Positions 15,795 to 25,767 of a stretch of DNA of 41,005 nt are shown here, piece by piece; the first letter of the stretch is position 1, and every line of letters starts with the position of its first letter. The stretch spans positions 1 through 41,005 of the forward strand of contig CANPYS010000016.1 of assembly GCA_947588655.1 (NCBI GenBank). Direction: 5' to 3'. The notes under the pieces are model-generated. The model saw only the letters and a program-made list of their open reading frames with translations, ran no database searches and was not told the DNA's origin. Position numbers and translations under genes: made by a program. Origin of the DNA: an uncultured Alphaproteobacteria bacterium (GTDB taxonomy: Bacteria; Pseudomonadota; Alphaproteobacteria; RF32; CAG-239).

Positions 15795-16334
15795 ATGAAA
15801 AGATACCTGTCGCTGATTTGTTTGATACTGATAACGAGCAAAGCTTTTGCTGAAGAAATACCGGAGGAATTTCAAAACCCGATTTTTAATAACATTCTTT
15901 GGTCAGAAAATTATAATCTGACAAACCATATGCGCCTGACGCCAAAATATACTTATGATTTGGAAAATCCACGTGGTAATTATAAGACCACATATATAGC
16001 GGAATCAGATAAGGCCGTTTTGGTTAAATATTATGGAGAAGGTTTTGCAAAAGATAACGTCTCTTATGAGATGTATTTGATTCGTTATAAATATTATTTA
16101 CCATGGGAAAAAAGATTTAGATGTCTTGTTTGGCAATGCATCTTTGACATCAGAAACGGTGTATTTAATCCTAAATACGATATTTCCCAAAATATATACT
16201 CAAGCGACCTGCCTTGTCCTGATGAAGAAGAAAGATATACGGAAAATACGGAAGCGCCTAGGATAGATTGTCTGGAAGAACTCCGCCGCCTCGGTTGGGA
16301 TAAATACATCAAAGCTGAGGAAAAAAAGAAATGA
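15795..16334 (+). CDS. Exported putative immunity protein, copy 1
   Basis: A 179-aa product with a Sec signal peptide (1-19, cleavage likely after AFA), so periplasmic. Conserved mature features are PIFNNILW, NYNLTNHMRLTP, YDLENPRG, ESDKA, VWQC, NGVFNPKY and SSDLPCPDE. Four conserved cysteines (110, 115, 141, 159) would allow two disulfides. I do not recognise the family; it is not obviously MliC, PliI, PliG or Ivy. It has its own good ribosome site (AAGGAG, 15782-15787). Position behind a muramidase gene suggests a lysozyme inhibitor or immunity role (inference). Its stop overlaps the next start as ATGA. Confidence 0.7.
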   Translation: MKRYLSLICLILITSKAFAEEIPEEFQNPIFNNILWSENYNLTNHMRLTPKYTYDLENPRGNYKTTYIAESDKAVLVKYYGEGFAKDNVSYEMYLIRYKYYLPWEKRFRCLVWQCIFDIRNGVFNPKYDISQNIYSSDLPCPDEEERYTENTEAPRIDCLEELRRLGWDKYIKAEEKKK

Positions 16335-16870
16335 AAAGATACCTGTTGCTGATTTGTTTAATCTTGATAACAAGCAAAGTTTTTGCGGAAGAAGTTCCCG
16401 AGGAATTTAAAAACCCAATTTTTAATAACATTCTTTGGTCAGAAAATTACAATCTAACAAACCATATGCGCTTGACGCCAAGCTTTAGTTATGATTTAGA
16501 AAACCCACGTGGCGATCGTAAGTGCACATATGTGACGGAGTCAGACAAGGCAATCTTGCTTAAACATTATGGAAAAGGTTTTGCAAAAGATACCGTTGTA
16601 TATGAATTATATTTGAATCGTTATAAATATTTTTTACGTTGGGAAAAAAGATATAGATGTCTTGTTTGGCAATGTTTTTTTGACATCAGAAACGGTGTAT
16701 TTAATCCTAAATACGATATTTCCCAAAATATATACTCAAGCGACCTGCCTTGTCCTGATGAAGAAGAAAGATATACGGAAAATACGGAAGCGCCTAGGAT
16801 AGATTGTCTGGAAGAACTCCGCCGCCTCGGTTGGGATAAATACATCACTTCAGAGGAAAAAAAGAAATGA
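16331..16870 (+). CDS. Exported putative immunity protein, copy 2
   Basis: A 179-aa paralogue of copy 1, exactly 536 nt downstream and overlapping it by 4 nt (ATGA), so probably translated by coupling with GAGG at the end of copy 1. Its last third is almost identical to copy 1 (including EEERYTENTEAPRIDCLEE). Its middle (SFSYDLENPRGDRKCTYVTESDK) matches copy 4 instead. It has an extra cysteine in RKCTYV. Signal peptide ends VFA. The mosaic pattern points to exchange between copies. Confidence 0.7.
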   Translation: MKRYLLLICLILITSKVFAEEVPEEFKNPIFNNILWSENYNLTNHMRLTPSFSYDLENPRGDRKCTYVTESDKAILLKHYGKGFAKDTVVYELYLNRYKYFLRWEKRYRCLVWQCFFDIRNGVFNPKYDISQNIYSSDLPCPDEEERYTENTEAPRIDCLEELRRLGWDKYITSEEKKK

Positions 16871-17406
16871 AAAGATACCTGTTGCTGATTTGTTTGATAT
16901 TGATAACAAGCAAAGCTTTTGCTGAAGAAGTTCCGGAAAAATTTAAAAACCCGATTTTTAATAACATTCTTTGGTCAGAAAATTATAATCTGACAAACCA
17001 TATGCGCCTGACACCAAACTATACTTATGATTTAGAAAATCCGCGTGGCAATTATAAGACCACATATATAGCGGAATCAGATAAGGCTGTTTTGGTTAAA
17101 TATTATGGAGAAGGCTTTGCCAAAAATAACGTCTCATACGAGTTATATTTTATTCATGAAAAATATTATTTGTCACGGGAAAAAAGATATAGATGTAATG
17201 TTTGGCAATGCATCTTTGACATCAAAAACGGTGTATTTAATCCAAAATACGATATTTCCCAAAATATATACTCAAGCGACCTGCCTTGCCCCGATGAGAA
17301 AGTAGAGGATCTGAGCATTATAGGAAAACCCGATCCGGATTGCCTGGAAGAACTCCGTCGCCTCGGTTGGGATAAATACATCACTTCAGAGGAAAAAAAG
17401 AAATGA
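16867..17406 (+). CDS. Exported putative immunity protein, copy 3
   Basis: A 179-aa paralogue, again 536 nt further on with a 4-nt ATGA overlap. Its middle (YTYDLENPRGNYKTTYIAE) matches copy 1, while its FIHEKYYL segment matches copy 4. Residues 142-157 (DEKVEDLSIIGKPDPD) differ from copies 1 and 2, marking a variable region between the third and fourth conserved cysteines, possibly the surface that faces the enzyme. Confidence 0.7.
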   Translation: MKRYLLLICLILITSKAFAEEVPEKFKNPIFNNILWSENYNLTNHMRLTPNYTYDLENPRGNYKTTYIAESDKAVLVKYYGEGFAKNNVSYELYFIHEKYYLSREKRYRCNVWQCIFDIKNGVFNPKYDISQNIYSSDLPCPDEKVEDLSIIGKPDPDCLEELRRLGWDKYITSEEKKK

Positions 17407-17942
17407 AAAGATACCTGTCGCTGATTTGTTTGATCTTGATAACAAGCAAAGTTTTTGCGGAAGAAGCTCCGGAAGAATTTAAAAACCCAATTTTTAACAA
17501 CATTCTTTGGTCGGGTAACTACAATTTAACAAACCATATGCGCTTGACGCCAAGCTTTAGTTATGATTTAGAAAATCCGCGTGGCGATCATAAGTGCACA
17601 TATGTGACGGAATCAGATAAGGCGGTTTTAATTAAATATTATGGGGAAGGTTTTGCCAAAGATAACGTTACATACGAGTTATATTTTATTCATGAAAAAT
17701 ATTATTTACCATGGGAAAAAAGATATAGATGCATTGTTTGGCAATGCGTTTTTGATATTAAGAACGGTGTATTTAATCCAAAATACAATATTTCCGAATA
17801 TATATACTCAAGCGACCTGCCTTGCCCCGATGAAAAAGAAGAAGAGTATCTAGCATATTTAAAACCCGCCCCTGATTGTCTAGAAGAACTCCGCCGCCTC
17901 CGTTGGGATAAATACATCAAAGCTGAGGAAAAACGGTTATAA
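17403..17942 (+). CDS. Exported putative immunity protein, copy 4
   Basis: The last 179-aa paralogue, overlapping copy 3 by ATGA. It shares SFSYDLENPRGD and RKC-like HKCTYVTESDK with copy 2 and FIHEKYYL with copy 3. The variable region reads DEKEEEYLAYLKPAPD, and it ends EEKRL rather than EEKKK. It is the most divergent copy in the tail (NISEYIYSS, LRWDKY). It ends 14 nt before the convergent pyruvyl transferase gene; no clear terminator was seen. Confidence 0.7.
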   Translation: MKRYLSLICLILITSKVFAEEAPEEFKNPIFNNILWSGNYNLTNHMRLTPSFSYDLENPRGDHKCTYVTESDKAVLIKYYGEGFAKDNVTYELYFIHEKYYLPWEKRYRCIVWQCVFDIKNGVFNPKYNISEYIYSSDLPCPDEKEEEYLAYLKPAPDCLEELRRLRWDKYIKAEEKRL

Positions 17943-17956
17943 ATTTTCCGTGAAAA

Positions 17957-19106
17957 TCAGCGACGTTTGCCCTTTTGTTTTTTATAACGGATATGTATAA
18001 AGCCAAATAAAACGATATGTCGTTTAAAACCGCTTTTATATTTCTTAAAAAAATGAAATCTCGGTAATGTCAATGGTGTATCCGGACGTGATAAATTGGC
18101 GCCTTTGTGTTCACATTCTTTAAAATGCACACTTTTACTGTGCGTAAACGCAAGACAGAGTTTTTTAAGATGCTTGGCATATTTTTTATAAGCTTCGCTG
18201 TTGATGACAAGACCTTGCGCATCTTTTAAAACCCTTATTTCAAATTTCCCTTGTTCGTTTTCTCCGATGCAGTTAAGCAAAGAAACAATGCCACGAAATC
18301 TTTTGTAATCAAAAGAAGGTGCAATCAAAATCACAGGTGTCCCTAGTGCCAAGCAGGGTAGGGCGCAGTGAATATTTTGTGTAATGACCAGCTTGGCGCG
18401 GGCATAATCTTTAATCAGTCGCTCTGCCTCGCGCAGACTTCCTTCGGGATCTGTATTGAGCGGATAGTGATGACTGCGATATAAAAGTTGACAATCAGGA
18501 TATTTTTTCAAAATTTTTTTAACCGCGCCGTCAATTTTATAATTTTTCCCTAAAGCGTAGTCTACAAAAAATATATTATTATGACGTTCACTCTCCTTGA
18601 CGCGGTACGTCTCGCCCAAAGTCAAAGTTAGACAACCGGAAAAATAAGCCTCAATATGGTGTTTTTTCAAAAAATCGCGCGTTTGATAATCGCGACACCC
18701 GATAGGTTCGTGTTTTTTGAGATAATCTAAAGTTTTTTGTGTTACATTTTGCAAATTATTGATATGAAAAGACACAAACAAAGGATGAAAACGCTCTGAA
18801 AAAGCCTGATTACCACGCCATAAAAAATACCATGCGTTCATAATCAGATTTATTTGATTTCCCTGGTAAAATGAAAGCCTATCTCGGTCAATATAAACAT
18901 CTATTTGATTAAAAAACTGCCTTGCCGCTAAAGATTGAATATAGTCGCCAATATTCATATACGGCGGATTATAATAGCCCTTTTCTGATTGAGCATTGTT
19001 ATAGGTATAAATAAGCAGGCCGTTTTTCTTGAATGGGGGGGGGTAGAGAAGATTGTGCCTGCGTCAGCATTTGCAAATGTTTCAAGGCAAGTTGTTTATC
19101 AGTCAT
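17957..19106 (-). CDS. Polysaccharide pyruvyl transferase family protein, OFF phase (frame broken at C9 tract)
   Basis: Proteins of this family (CsaB/WcaK-like) add ketal pyruvate to surface glycans or act as related glycan-modifying enzymes. The natural start is ATG at 19106 with AAGGAT upstream. In this sequence a run of nine C (19035-19043, minus-strand reading) shifts the frame and stops translation after 35 codons. With eight C the frame reads on as LLIYTYNNAQ...NPPYMNIGDYIQSLAARQF, an expected family N-terminus, giving 382 aa. The downstream frame is intact, starting at an internal ATG (18958), and has the family motif GCRDYQTRDFL...SGCLTLTL and the LVITQNIHCALPCLALGTPVI region. A basic C-terminal tail suggests membrane association. 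The gene is probably phase-variable. Confidence 0.72.
19035..19043. repeat. Poly-G/C tract (9 nt), contingency site
   Basis: Nine G on the plus strand (C on the coding strand) at codon 22-24 of the pyruvyl transferase gene. Such tracts slip during replication and switch genes on and off. Eight C would restore the full frame. Confidence 0.75.
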
Positions 19107-21453: not shown

Positions 21454-22059
21454 ATGATATATGGCTATGTACGTGTCAGTAGTGACAAACAAACAACGGA
21501 AAATCAAATTTTTGAAATTTCCAGATTCGTCAAATACAACAACTTAAAGGTGGAGCGTTGGATAAATGAAACCATCAGCGGCACAACCGATGTCAACAAA
21601 CGAAAGCTTGGAAAACTTTTAAAAAGTTTGCGCAAAGGCGACATTTTAATTACTTCCGAGCTTTCAAGGCTTGGGCGTAATTTGCTTCAAGTGATGAGCA
21701 TTTTATCTTTTTGCATGGAGCATGACATTGCGGTTTGGACCATTAAGGACAATTATCGTTTGGGCGCTGATTTGCAATCCAAAATTTTAGCATTTGCATT
21801 TTCGCTTTCAGCCGAAATTGAACGAAACCTTATCTCACAACGCACCAAAGAAGCCTTAAGACGCATAAAAGCAGAAGGCAAAATTTTGGGCCGCCCGCTG
21901 GGCAGTAGTAACAAACACTACAAGCTGACTGGACGTGAGGAAAACATTTATATGTGCCTTTCTAAGAGATATTCTCTGAACAAAACAGCACGCTCGTTCC
22001 ATGTGCATTCCAGCACGTTAAAACGATTTTTAATTAAGGAGTTTGAAGATTACATATAA
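21454..22059 (+). CDS. Serine recombinase, Mpi-like master DNA invertase
   Basis: A 201-aa site-specific recombinase of the resolvase/invertase type. The catalytic serine is in YVRVSSDKQT (Ser9), with LSRLGRN (Arg72, Arg75) following. WTIKDNYRLGADLQSKILAF and the dimer-helix segment AEIERNLISQRTKEAL closely resemble the Mpi family of Bacteroides, which flips many promoters globally. The C-terminal helix-turn-helix (about 163-198) contains SLNKTARSFHVHSSTLKRFL. Not linked to a transposon here. It has its own promoter and ribosome site (AAGGA). Likely target sites in this window are the 38-bp elements containing AAACGTACGT. The gene may have been exchanged with Bacteroidota in a shared habitat (inference). 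Confidence 0.88.
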   Translation: MIYGYVRVSSDKQTTENQIFEISRFVKYNNLKVERWINETISGTTDVNKRKLGKLLKSLRKGDILITSELSRLGRNLLQVMSILSFCMEHDIAVWTIKDNYRLGADLQSKILAFAFSLSAEIERNLISQRTKEALRRIKAEGKILGRPLGSSNKHYKLTGREENIYMCLSKRYSLNKTARSFHVHSSTLKRFLIKEFEDYI

Positions 22060-22125
22060 ATTTTTGCTAGTGTATGTAAAAAAACGCTTGCATTTTAAAA
22101 TGGTTTATGTCATTTAGAAAGACAA

Positions 22126-22201
<76 letters not shown>

Positions 22202-23523: not shown

Positions 23524-24417
23524 TTAAATTTTCTCTTTTAGGCGGTTAGTGAGTTTAAGCGCGCCTGAAAAATTTAAGTGCGCACCGTCATAAAAATCAT
23601 CATTCTCAAAGCCTTTTGAAAAATCTAAGACATTAATTTCAAGTTGTTGACAAATTTTGTGAAGAGGCGCATAAAGCTTTTTGTGCGAATATCCCAAATC
23701 CTGGCATACTTTATTATAATCCGAACGTGTCGGTGCAATAAGAACCTGAAACCGAATCTGATTTTGTTTGCAAAGCGCGGCAATTTTTTCCAAATAAATC
23801 CACTGATTGTTAAAACTTTCAAAAAGATGAACATGTTTTGTGGCGGCCGCCTGACAGTCGCCTTGCTTTTCTTTGGCATATGTAATGCCTGCAAAGTCGT
23901 AGCCTCCAACAGTTCTTATGCCTTTCATAGTTTTTATTTTTTGGACGCGTTTATAAATTTTATTTAGGTTATATTTTTTATTCAAAGAAAAATCATAAGG
24001 AATATCAAAATATTTTTTTAAAAAAAGGCATTCCCAACAATCTTTTGTATAAACCAAGCAACTTCCGCCATTATAATACGATAAAACCAAAATCAAATTT
24101 TTTATTTTAGGCATTGCGCCAAGAAGTTTTTTAAAAATGTGATAGTCTTCAAACAAACCTATGGAAGATATGCCCATATTAAATGTGTTTGGATTAAGAA
24201 TAAAGGGTAAAATATTAAGTTGTGCCCGAGAAGCGCCTAAAATAAGTGTCTCAATAGTTTTGGACTTTTGCTTAAATTCTTGACATTTCTCTTCCAAGAT
24301 AGAAGCAAAACATTTATACTCATCCCGCTTTTCGGGCATGAGTTTATATTTTAATAAACGGCGAATCTTTTTGTTAGGTACTAAGTTGCAAATTAATCTT
24401 CTTAAAAATTCCGGCAT
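23524..24417 (-). CDS. SGNH-hydrolase-like protein, possible glycan acyl-modifying enzyme
   Basis: The 297-aa product has LILGASRAQLNI (58-69) in the position of the SGNH block I serine (Ser63), and FYDGAHLNFSGALKL (275-289) with Asp277 and His280, the DxxH of block V. This resembles the DltD/AlgJ-like group that moves or removes acyl groups on glycans. There is no signal peptide; the N-terminus is basic and amphipathic (RRLICNLVPNKKIRRLLKYK), perhaps membrane-associated. Seen: motifs. Inferred: a role in surface polysaccharide modification, in line with the nearby fucosyltransferase and pyruvyl transferase. The gene begins 25 nt past the terminator of a structured RNA. Confidence 0.6.
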   Translation of the reverse strand: MPEFLRRLICNLVPNKKIRRLLKYKLMPEKRDEYKCFASILEEKCQEFKQKSKTIETLILGASRAQLNILPFILNPNTFNMGISSIGLFEDYHIFKKLLGAMPKIKNLILVLSYYNGGSCLVYTKDCWECLFLKKYFDIPYDFSLNKKYNLNKIYKRVQKIKTMKGIRTVGGYDFAGITYAKEKQGDCQAAATKHVHLFESFNNQWIYLEKIAALCKQNQIRFQVLIAPTRSDYNKVCQDLGYSHKKLYAPLHKICQQLEINVLDFSKGFENDDFYDGAHLNFSGALKLTNRLKEKI

Positions 24418-24441
24418 TGTCTAAACGTCCTCTGTTAAATC

Positions 24442-24635
24442 AAAAAAAGCCGCTCCAAAAAGAAGCGGGCGGATGTTCAGAAACCGTATAGACTTAAACG
24501 GCTCGGCTTATTTGGCAGAGCCTTATTCGCCGACATCCGTCCATAAACAGAAGTCGGCACAATATTTTTAAAGTCGTGTGCGCACGACTAAGTCTATAAA
24601 GGGTTTCTGACGCCCTAGGCAGAAATTTCTGCCAC
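24442..24635 (-). ncRNA. Structured RNA of about 194 nt, family not recognised
   Basis: The minus strand has a promoter, a structured body and an intrinsic terminator, but no open frame. In order: hairpin GGCAGAAA/TTTCTGCC (24617-24632); a long closing stem CAGAAACC...ATAGACTT with AAGTCTAT..GGTTTCTG; inside it three hairpins, AGTCGTG/CACGACT, GCCGAC/GTCGGC and GGCTC/GAGCC; then CCGCT/AGCGG and seven U (24442-24468). It is not RNase P, SRP RNA or tmRNA by their hallmark sequences, and not a clear 6S rod. It could be a free ncRNA or a riboswitch/attenuator for the SGNH gene 25 nt downstream. Confidence 0.65.
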
Positions 24636-24641
24636 GAATAC

Positions 24642-24670
24642 AGAGTATTGAATTTCAAAAATATAGTCAA
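24642..24670 (-). promoter_or_regulatory. Promoter of the structured RNA
   Basis: TTGACT (24665-24670), exactly 17 nt, TACTCT (24642-24647). The 20 nt around its -35 (GCTTGACTATATTTT) are the same as in the fucosyltransferase promoter at 25768-25796. Confidence 0.6.
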
Positions 24671-24782: not shown

Positions 24783-25739
24783 TTACTTTAATTTTTGACG
24801 AAGTTCTTTCCTTTTGCGAGAAGAGGGAACAAAGTTGATAAAAAACTTTTTGAGTTTATACGAAAACCTCTTTTTTCTAAAATTTTCCATAAAAGGGACA
24901 ATCGTTTCTTTCTCTAAAGATAAGAAAATGCATTTATTAAAGTAGTCTTTCAAATCAAGAGCTATCAAGGGATTGATAAAATAGCCTTCATTTTTTGATA
25001 AGATGCGAGCAAAGCGTCCAAAACTTCCTTTGCTTGCAATAAAATGTTGGCATTTAGTCATCAGGTACAAATCCAAATAACCTTTGTCTGAGCCGTTTTG
25101 TTCACAGATTTTATACGCCAGATTTTGCGGTAATTGAGGAATTAAAAAATCATTGACCCAAGACATTTCATCTGAAAAGAAATAAAATTTCACCTTTGGA
25201 ACAAGGGCGTTTATAATTTTTATGGCACTAATAAAATATTCTTCCGAACAGGGGCGCCCATAGCCAGTGTCTGTGTGCATAGCCAAGTCGCCACGACGAA
25301 CATGCACAGCGCAGGAGCAATGTGCGCATATATCGTCTAAAGTTGTTTGAATTGCCTTCAAATCAGATTGGGGGGGGGTAAAGCGTTCGGCAAAAGTTGT
25401 TCTGTTCTCAAGCAGATATTTCATGCCGCTTGGATAACCGTCCAAATAAAGAGGAGATTTCATTTTAAATATATTATTCGTTTTTTTAGGATATTTTTTA
25501 GAATAATACTTAATTTCATCGTGTGTTGCTTCTTCAAATGGAAGTGAAGGAAAGGCTTTCAATAAATCAAAATTTCTGGCAAAGCGTCCGTCCATATCTA
25601 AGCCGTCGGTTTCAAACCAAGTTAAATCAAATTTAACATGGTAATTTTGGCTCATAAAATATGCGCCAATCGCATAAAAATTTATTTGAGAAGATATGCC
25701 GCCGTCAACGCGAACAATAATCAAATCATCTTTTTTCAT
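24783..25739 (-). CDS. Alpha-1,2-fucosyltransferase family protein (GT11), phase-variable
   Basis: GT11 enzymes transfer L-fucose from GDP-fucose onto galactose-containing glycans. The second of two adjacent ATGs (25739) is better placed after CGGAG. The 318-aa product has VRVDGGISSQINFYAIGAYF near the N-terminus, the GDP-fucose motif VHVRRGD in the middle, FYFFSDEMSWV, and a strongly basic C-terminus (SSRKRKELRQKLK) suited to membrane contact. A run of nine C (25370-25378) encodes Thr-Pro-Pro and keeps the frame, so this copy is ON; loss or gain of one base would truncate the protein before HxRRGD. It has its own promoter. Confidence 0.82.
   Translation of the reverse strand: MKKDDLIIVRVDGGISSQINFYAIGAYFMSQNYHVKFDLTWFETDGLDMDGRFARNFDLLKAFPSLPFEEATHDEIKYYSKKYPKKTNNIFKMKSPLYLDGYPSGMKYLLENRTTFAERFTPPQSDLKAIQTTLDDICAHCSCAVHVRRGDLAMHTDTGYGRPCSEEYFISAIKIINALVPKVKFYFFSDEMSWVNDFLIPQLPQNLAYKICEQNGSDKGYLDLYLMTKCQHFIASKGSFGRFARILSKNEGYFINPLIALDLKDYFNKCIFLSLEKETIVPFMENFRKKRFSYKLKKFFINFVPSSRKRKELRQKLK
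25370..25378. repeat. Poly-G/C tract (9 nt) in the fucosyltransferase gene
   Basis: Nine consecutive G on the plus strand within codons for RFTPPQ. It has the same length and kind as the tract that breaks the pyruvyl transferase gene, but here the frame is open. Confidence 0.75.
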
Positions 25740-25767
25740 CATAAGCTCCGAATAAAATACTTCAAAA

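Follow-up and report, generated by a model that had tools for sequence, protein, structure and literature searches.

A probable C4-type leader antisense RNA, related to sRNA-Xcc1, ahead of envelope-protein genes in gut Alphaproteobacteria

What is the role of a compact, highly structured RNA that is encoded directly ahead of a protein gene and appears to carry its own signals for the start and the end of transcription? Such an RNA lies in the window, by which we mean the whole analyzed stretch of 41,005 nucleotides from an uncultured alphaproteobacterium of the CAG-239 lineage, on the minus strand at about 24636-24443, between a GT11-family glycosyltransferase gene (24783-25742) and a gene for a 297-aa protein (Table 1). 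The sequence can be read as a promoter-like site, a 5' hairpin, the compact RNA and an intrinsic terminator, and every part named in the original prediction, i.e. TTGACT-N17-TACTCT, the 5' hairpin and a terminator whose end is 25 nt short of the following gene's ATG, was located on this strand. That prediction described a structured ncRNA of about 194 nt with its own promoter and terminator, or alternatively a riboswitch-like attenuator. The structured RNA is borne out by its fold, with -85.4 kcal/mol versus -50.9 +/- 4.2 kcal/mol for dinucleotide shuffles (z -8.3), and by the strong covariation in the alignment of its homologs, and what was called the promoter is a promoter-like site. As predicted, there is no gene-like frame on the RNA's own strand: the frames that cross the window RNA are short, at 27 to 58 aa, and have GTG or TTG starts. 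The “SGNH-type” assignment of the downstream gene is unproven, and in a Pfam scan its protein gave no match.

Table 1. Positions of the RNA elements and of the presumed target gene in the window
Feature	Position	Strand	Detail or basis
Promoter-like TTGACT-N17-TACTCT	24642..24670	-	TTGACT 24670-24665, 17-nt spacer, TACTCT 24647-24642
5' hairpin GGCAGAAATTTCTGCC	24618..24633	-	sequence; hairpin recurrent among family copies
5' half: P1 5' strand UCAGAAACC and P2 5' strand AUAGACU-U	24590..24615	-	covariation
P3 hairpin AGUCG...CGACU	24572..24589	-	covariation
Pseudoknot PK1	24557..24581	-	GCAC 24581-24578 with GUGC 24560-24557
Core: closing stem GGACGGAUGU:ACAUCCGCCC, P4 arm, P2'/P1' strands	24467..24542	-	RF02221-matched part
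RBS-pairing strand UCUGAACAUCC, a' equivalent, overlaps P1'	24471..24481	-	complementarity to GGACGUUUAGA
Intrinsic terminator	24443..24468	-	7-bp stem + T7
RBS region of downstream gene, partner of 24481-24471	24420..24430	-	sequence; GGATGTT enrichment
Downstream gene, 297 aa, presumed target, ATG at 24417	23524..24417	-	no Pfam match

Some features of the neighborhood may be mentioned in their own right. The GT11-family ORF contains a run of nine G at 25370-25378 (C on the coding strand), possibly a phase-variable tract, with further runs of 8-9 G at 19035-19043 and at the end of the window. On the plus strand, four tandem 179-aa ORFs with successive 4-nt overlaps (15795-17942) have signal-peptide-like starts and share 140-153 of 179 residues between copies, and a serine-recombinase (Resolvase) gene at 21454-22201 adjoins a tRNA-Thr gene, a junction that is possibly the edge of an inserted element.

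How widespread is the RNA? A plain DNA search found four copies in the own genome and, with this genome counted, copies in 24 of 55 genomes. A covariance model (A2/R1, below termed R1) was built from 29 copies of the CAG:239-group RNA and scores the window RNA at 165 bits. Of the 126 genomes in the gut “Azospirillum CAG:239” group, it detected the RNA in 103, with one to at least 24 copies per carrier genome, and outside of this group it found the RNA, among 240 genomes of the class, in eight genomes from seven other alphaproteobacterial families. The carriers are mostly animal-gut MAGs. Six genomes (G423, G425, G391, G400, G407, G413) have 18 to at least 24 copies each; in G423 and G425 these mostly stand ahead of different secreted proteins, and a co-duplication of leader and gene is suggested there. 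Tandem pairs of RNA copies on the same strand, a few hundred bases to less than 2 kb apart, were seen at L108, L117, L074 and L294.

The flanking signals recur in the family. Among 94 copies, TTGA is found at the matching distance in 48, compared to 10 in a control interval, and the peak of the -35/-10 score is confined to the interval with the -10 element at -40 to -23, where 30 copies score 9 or more (5-9 in other intervals); it was the position-restricted scan alone that gave this signal, as an unrestricted promoter search across 120 nt was uninformative. A hairpin with a T-tract lies between RNA and gene in 69 of 93 copies, with 1.2 expected from shuffles, and the terminator of the window RNA is top-listed among the 11 terminator-like sites of a 5.8-kb scan. 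A 5' hairpin of at least five pairs is present in the 24 nt before P1 in 85 of 93 copies, versus 44 of 93 after shuffling.

Which parts of the fold are conserved? In a structure-blind MAFFT alignment of the family, 95.7% of the cells are paired and 20 of 42 pairs show changes on both sides, compared to 9.1 in shuffles. The covariation score is 0.290 (0.135 shuffled), and 500 shuffles as well as all slid controls fall far short of it. The 5' strands of P1 and P2 have their covarying partners at 24485-24477 and 24498-24487, with both-side changes in 13 of 17 pairs. P1 is of the UCAGAAACC type, and P2 is locus-specific, with both-side changes at every pair and a z of 33 for own versus permuted complementarity. 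In P3, three of four pairs changed on both sides and 99% of the cells are paired, and its loop forms the pseudoknot PK1 with GUGC (92% of cells paired), in which one pair (CG/UA/AU) has both-side changes, seen in 11 of 28 sequences. The core begins with the letters GGA, and its P4 arm has the internal loop GAAUAA/AAAUAA. Two long-range helices, two hairpins and one pseudoknot are thus supported by covariation. The originally described three hairpins belong to a single-sequence fold; what covariation backs instead is P1 together with P2, the pseudoknotted P3, and one P4 arm. A further hairpin of the MFE fold, GCCGAC:GUCGGC, was rejected, since it is conserved and yet covaries only at shuffle level (91 of 500 shuffles as high). 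The conserved GGACGGAUGU has two options, as it can pair within P4 or with ACAUCCGCCC as closing stem. The latter alternative is paired in 98.9% of the cells, its covariation being thin in the CAG:239 family (one pair) and strong in sRNA-Xcc1 loci (own versus permuted z 12.9).

The core strand that overlaps P1' has a second potential partner, namely the RBS of the next gene. In the window copy, UCUGAACAUCC can pair with GGACGUUUAGA (24430-24420) by 10 pairs around one A-C mismatch, and this match is among the weaker ones. In 89 of 94 copies, a mechanical ORF call that includes a few doubtful ORFs places a co-oriented ORF shortly after the RNA; no close ORF was found behind L012, L121, and one copy each of L108, L117 and L025. 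One RBS-pairing strand is common to many copies, the RBS GGATGTTC being the complement of GAACATCC in the RNA, and the target site in the CAG:239 family is mostly one continuous GGAUGUUC-type site. GGATGTT occurs in the RBS windows of 59 of 91 ORFs behind the RNA, compared to 12 of 647 other ORFs. Where the strand changes, the RBS changes with it, as in GCAUCC:GGAUGC (L120) and CAACAUCC:GGGUGUUG (L021), with UUUCGAAC:GUUCGAAA and GGUUUCUC:GAGAAACC as further compensatory pairs, and GGUUUUUGACUCC:GGAGUUAAAACC (L295) and UUUGUAACAUCC:GGAUUUUACAAA (L287) in other alphaproteobacterial families. The complementarity to the own RBS was reached in none of 10,000 permutations among the CAG:239 variants when aligned ungapped, in one of 10,000 when gapped, and in none of 10,000 in the other alphaproteobacterial families, all without correction for relatedness, and related loci are non-independent samples in such tests. 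In folding predictions, the accessibility of the RBS was 0.35 when the strand was shuffled, dropped to 0.05 when it was real (76/80), and was raised from there to 0.23 in the full leader (74/80). Lipoproteins, autotransporter-like and pilin-like proteins and outer-membrane barrels are found among the downstream gene products, next to a substantial unclassified remainder. As most copies lie directly upstream of a gene, on the same strand, and can pair with its RBS, the leader of the attenuator idea comes nearer to these data than a free-standing sRNA.

Is the RNA a known one? No Rfam family, including 6S RNA and riboswitches, reached its gathering score in the window, and the only meaningful sub-threshold match was sRNA-Xcc1 (RF02221), with 30.8 bits over the 3' half at a gathering score of 53, in an alignment that spans all 87 model positions. 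Of 13 diverged copies, 10 are matched by RF02221 at this position with 33-41 bits, and the best relative, with 40.9 bits, is still below threshold. In the reverse direction, R1, which contains CAG:239 sequences only, detects 12 of 60 sRNA-Xcc1 loci, always on the RNA itself and spanning its two halves, with E-values of 1.4e-4 (L040), 3.8e-4 (L157), 1.7e-3 (L048), 7.5e-3 (L141) and weaker ones for the rest; RF02221 thus covers just the 3' half of what is a longer RNA. In both RNAs, the closing stem encloses an arm that carries an AAUA-type internal loop and a CCGU..ACGG hairpin, and homology extends along the full RNA, including the 5' half. The window RNA, described as unrecognized, indeed belongs to no Rfam family at threshold, but it is best filed as a diverged full-length relative of sRNA-Xcc1, below the formal cut-off, with a layout like that of C4 and IsrK.

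The sRNA-Xcc1 loci, found by RF02221 above threshold in 35 out of 299 genomes of Pseudomonadota with up to nine copies each, differ in two respects. They usually have no terminator before the gene, and they precede, among others, genes of SymE, Bro-N, KilA-N, P22_AR_N and pRha proteins (8 of 10 scanned downstream proteins), whereas the CAG:239 copies mostly precede envelope-protein genes. On plasmids, annotated neighbors include SymE and Rha genes. sRNA-Xcc1 is carried in integron cassettes and occurs upstream of symE, for which merely “a divergent regulatory mechanism” has been proposed (PMC12444791). The exact core pattern was not found in viral contigs. In the sRNA-Xcc1 loci, the stretch ahead of the core recurs in the SD region of the following gene, as in L042 with UCGAAAACCCCAAUAGUAGC upstream, UCGAAAAGGAGAAUAGUAGC before the AUG, and the complement in the core, and two target sites are seen. 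The core strand is complementary to the own upstream half (z 11.6) and to the own RBS (z 7.5; 0 of 10,000 permutations, relatedness uncorrected), with z -0.2 for a control stretch. The sRNA-Xcc1 loci have the C4/IsrK layout of an upstream strand, its complement in the core, and a copy at the RBS. A freeing of the RBS by the 5' half obtained no support from folding in these loci, with accessibilities of 0.28 for the full RNA, 0.39 without and 0.28 with a shuffled 5' half.

In our opinion, the window RNA is probably a leader antisense RNA of the C4 type, which would block the translation of its own downstream gene. A single transcript would start near 24636, and the 5' strands of P1 and P2 would compete with the downstream RBS for the core strand that reaches from P2'/P1' into ACAUCC. 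Binding of this strand to the RBS would block translation, and its retention by the 5' half, if the competition takes place in vivo, would leave the RBS freer. The RNA would act in cis rather than in trans, and RNase P might process the transcript at the GGA that opens the core. As a terminator separates RNA and gene, most transcripts should end as an RNA of about 195 nt, which could also act in trans on read-through mRNA in a C4-like manner.

What alternatives exist for this mechanism? The RNA could be a terminated sRNA that acts in trans on several mRNAs with GGATGTT-type RBS, its place beside one of these targets being of secondary importance. We consider this unlikely, since the complementarity is locus-specific, the motif is rare at other ORFs (12/647), and of the eight AGGATGTT-ATG sites that the own genome has besides, only one (L167) is gene-start-like, although the strong terminator (69/93 copies) and the strand shared by many copies would suit such an sRNA, as would the facts that sRNA-Xcc1 was discovered as a free sRNA of about 88 nt (PMC2996969) and is termed trans-acting in the title of a cited work (reference 82 of PMC12444791). 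Genome-wide trans targets were rejected as an explanation: there are 10 AGGATGTT-ATG sites compared to 3 in the reversed control, and two of them are RNA copies.

A ligand-sensing riboswitch, in which the core would bind a metabolite or second messenger and RBS and terminator would serve as expression platform, is quite improbable. The complex pseudoknotted fold with its conserved core and internal loop, the alternative GGACGGAUGU:ACAUCCGCCC pairing in 98.9% of cells, and the combination of terminator and RBS sequestration would all be compatible with it, and envelope genes are frequent targets. c-di-GMP riboswitches are multi-copy leaders of surface genes, and their regulons often include envelope genes as well; their fold is different from that of the window RNA, and there is no Rfam match. 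Against any ligand speak the lack of a pathway common to the downstream genes, the position of relatives before phage antirepressors and SymE, and the locus-specificity of P2, the most variable helix. No Rfam riboswitch matches the RNA, and no sign of ligand binding was found. Lastly, a MITE-like or integron-borne mobile repeat whose fold reflects transposition rather than regulation is very hard to reconcile with a P2 that differs among copies yet stays paired and with co-orientation upstream of an ORF in most copies, and would leave the pairing with the neighbor's RBS unexplained, in spite of the at least 24 copies in the richest genomes and the presence of sRNA-Xcc1 in integron cassettes and on plasmids.

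We thus return to the leader antisense RNA and its models. The C4 systems of phages P1/P7 and of prophages (RF01695, RF03163 c4-a1b1, RF01394 isrK) have upstream a1/b1 segments, a core with b'/a', and a copy at the RBS; in true C4 loci, the Rfam annotation has isrK and c4-a1b1 immediately ahead of C4. RNase P cuts C4 out of a longer transcript at GGW, and the b' loop partly occludes the RBS (PMC5320573), while IsrK is a terminated 5' RNA that in trans activates the inactively folded read-through transcript (PMC4825925). True C4 loci, taken as positive control in the complementarity test applied to the sRNA-Xcc1 loci, gave z-values of 7.5 and 6.5 (control -1.1; 0 of 5,000 permutations, relatedness uncorrected). 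RF01695 gave no match with E up to 10 in the window, and none in the family loci or the own genome. A sub-threshold c4-2 match (L040:2890-2958, minus strand; 34.8 bits, E 0.001) shares a 3-kb stretch with an sRNA-Xcc1 locus upstream of a P22_AR_N gene. That C4 and sRNA-Xcc1 share an ancestor is argued here from layout and not from alignment; the literature considered was that of open PMC papers, and an earlier recognition of sRNA-Xcc1 as C4-like may exist elsewhere.

It is possible, and we propose this tentatively, that gut Alphaproteobacteria adopted a phage-type C4/IsrK module as a duplicating leader that gives each surface-protein gene a matched switch, and that copies with shared RBS motifs could silence or wake each other, a surface variation based on RNA only. 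The C4-type layout offers an explanation for sRNA-Xcc1 upstream of symE, and each gene's RBS yields a directly testable pairing prediction, and the release of such RNAs becomes an accessible question. The principle would extend beyond phages to more than 100 gut species, with at least 24 copies in the richest genomes and mostly ahead of envelope genes.

As in C4, the window RNA family has a core strand with complementarity to the next gene's RBS, and the same strand is complementary to an upstream segment of a1/b1 type (P1/P2). C4 pairs via a' and b' with two target strands, a2 and b2, one of them over the SD, whereas the window RNA family has one RBS-pairing strand and mostly one target; C4 controls the antirepressor (ant) operon, whereas the family precedes non-phage genes; and the terminator-like hairpin of the C4 system is replaced by the pseudoknotted P3. 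Given the lack of a covariance-model match, a single target strand instead of two, and targets other than antirepressors, the window RNA is no formal member of C4. New in the CAG:239-group RNA are the terminator after the core, which C4 lacks, and envelope proteins as target class. With this, sRNA-Xcc1 and C4/c4-a1b1/isrK, which are separate entries in Rfam, would be joined under one working principle.
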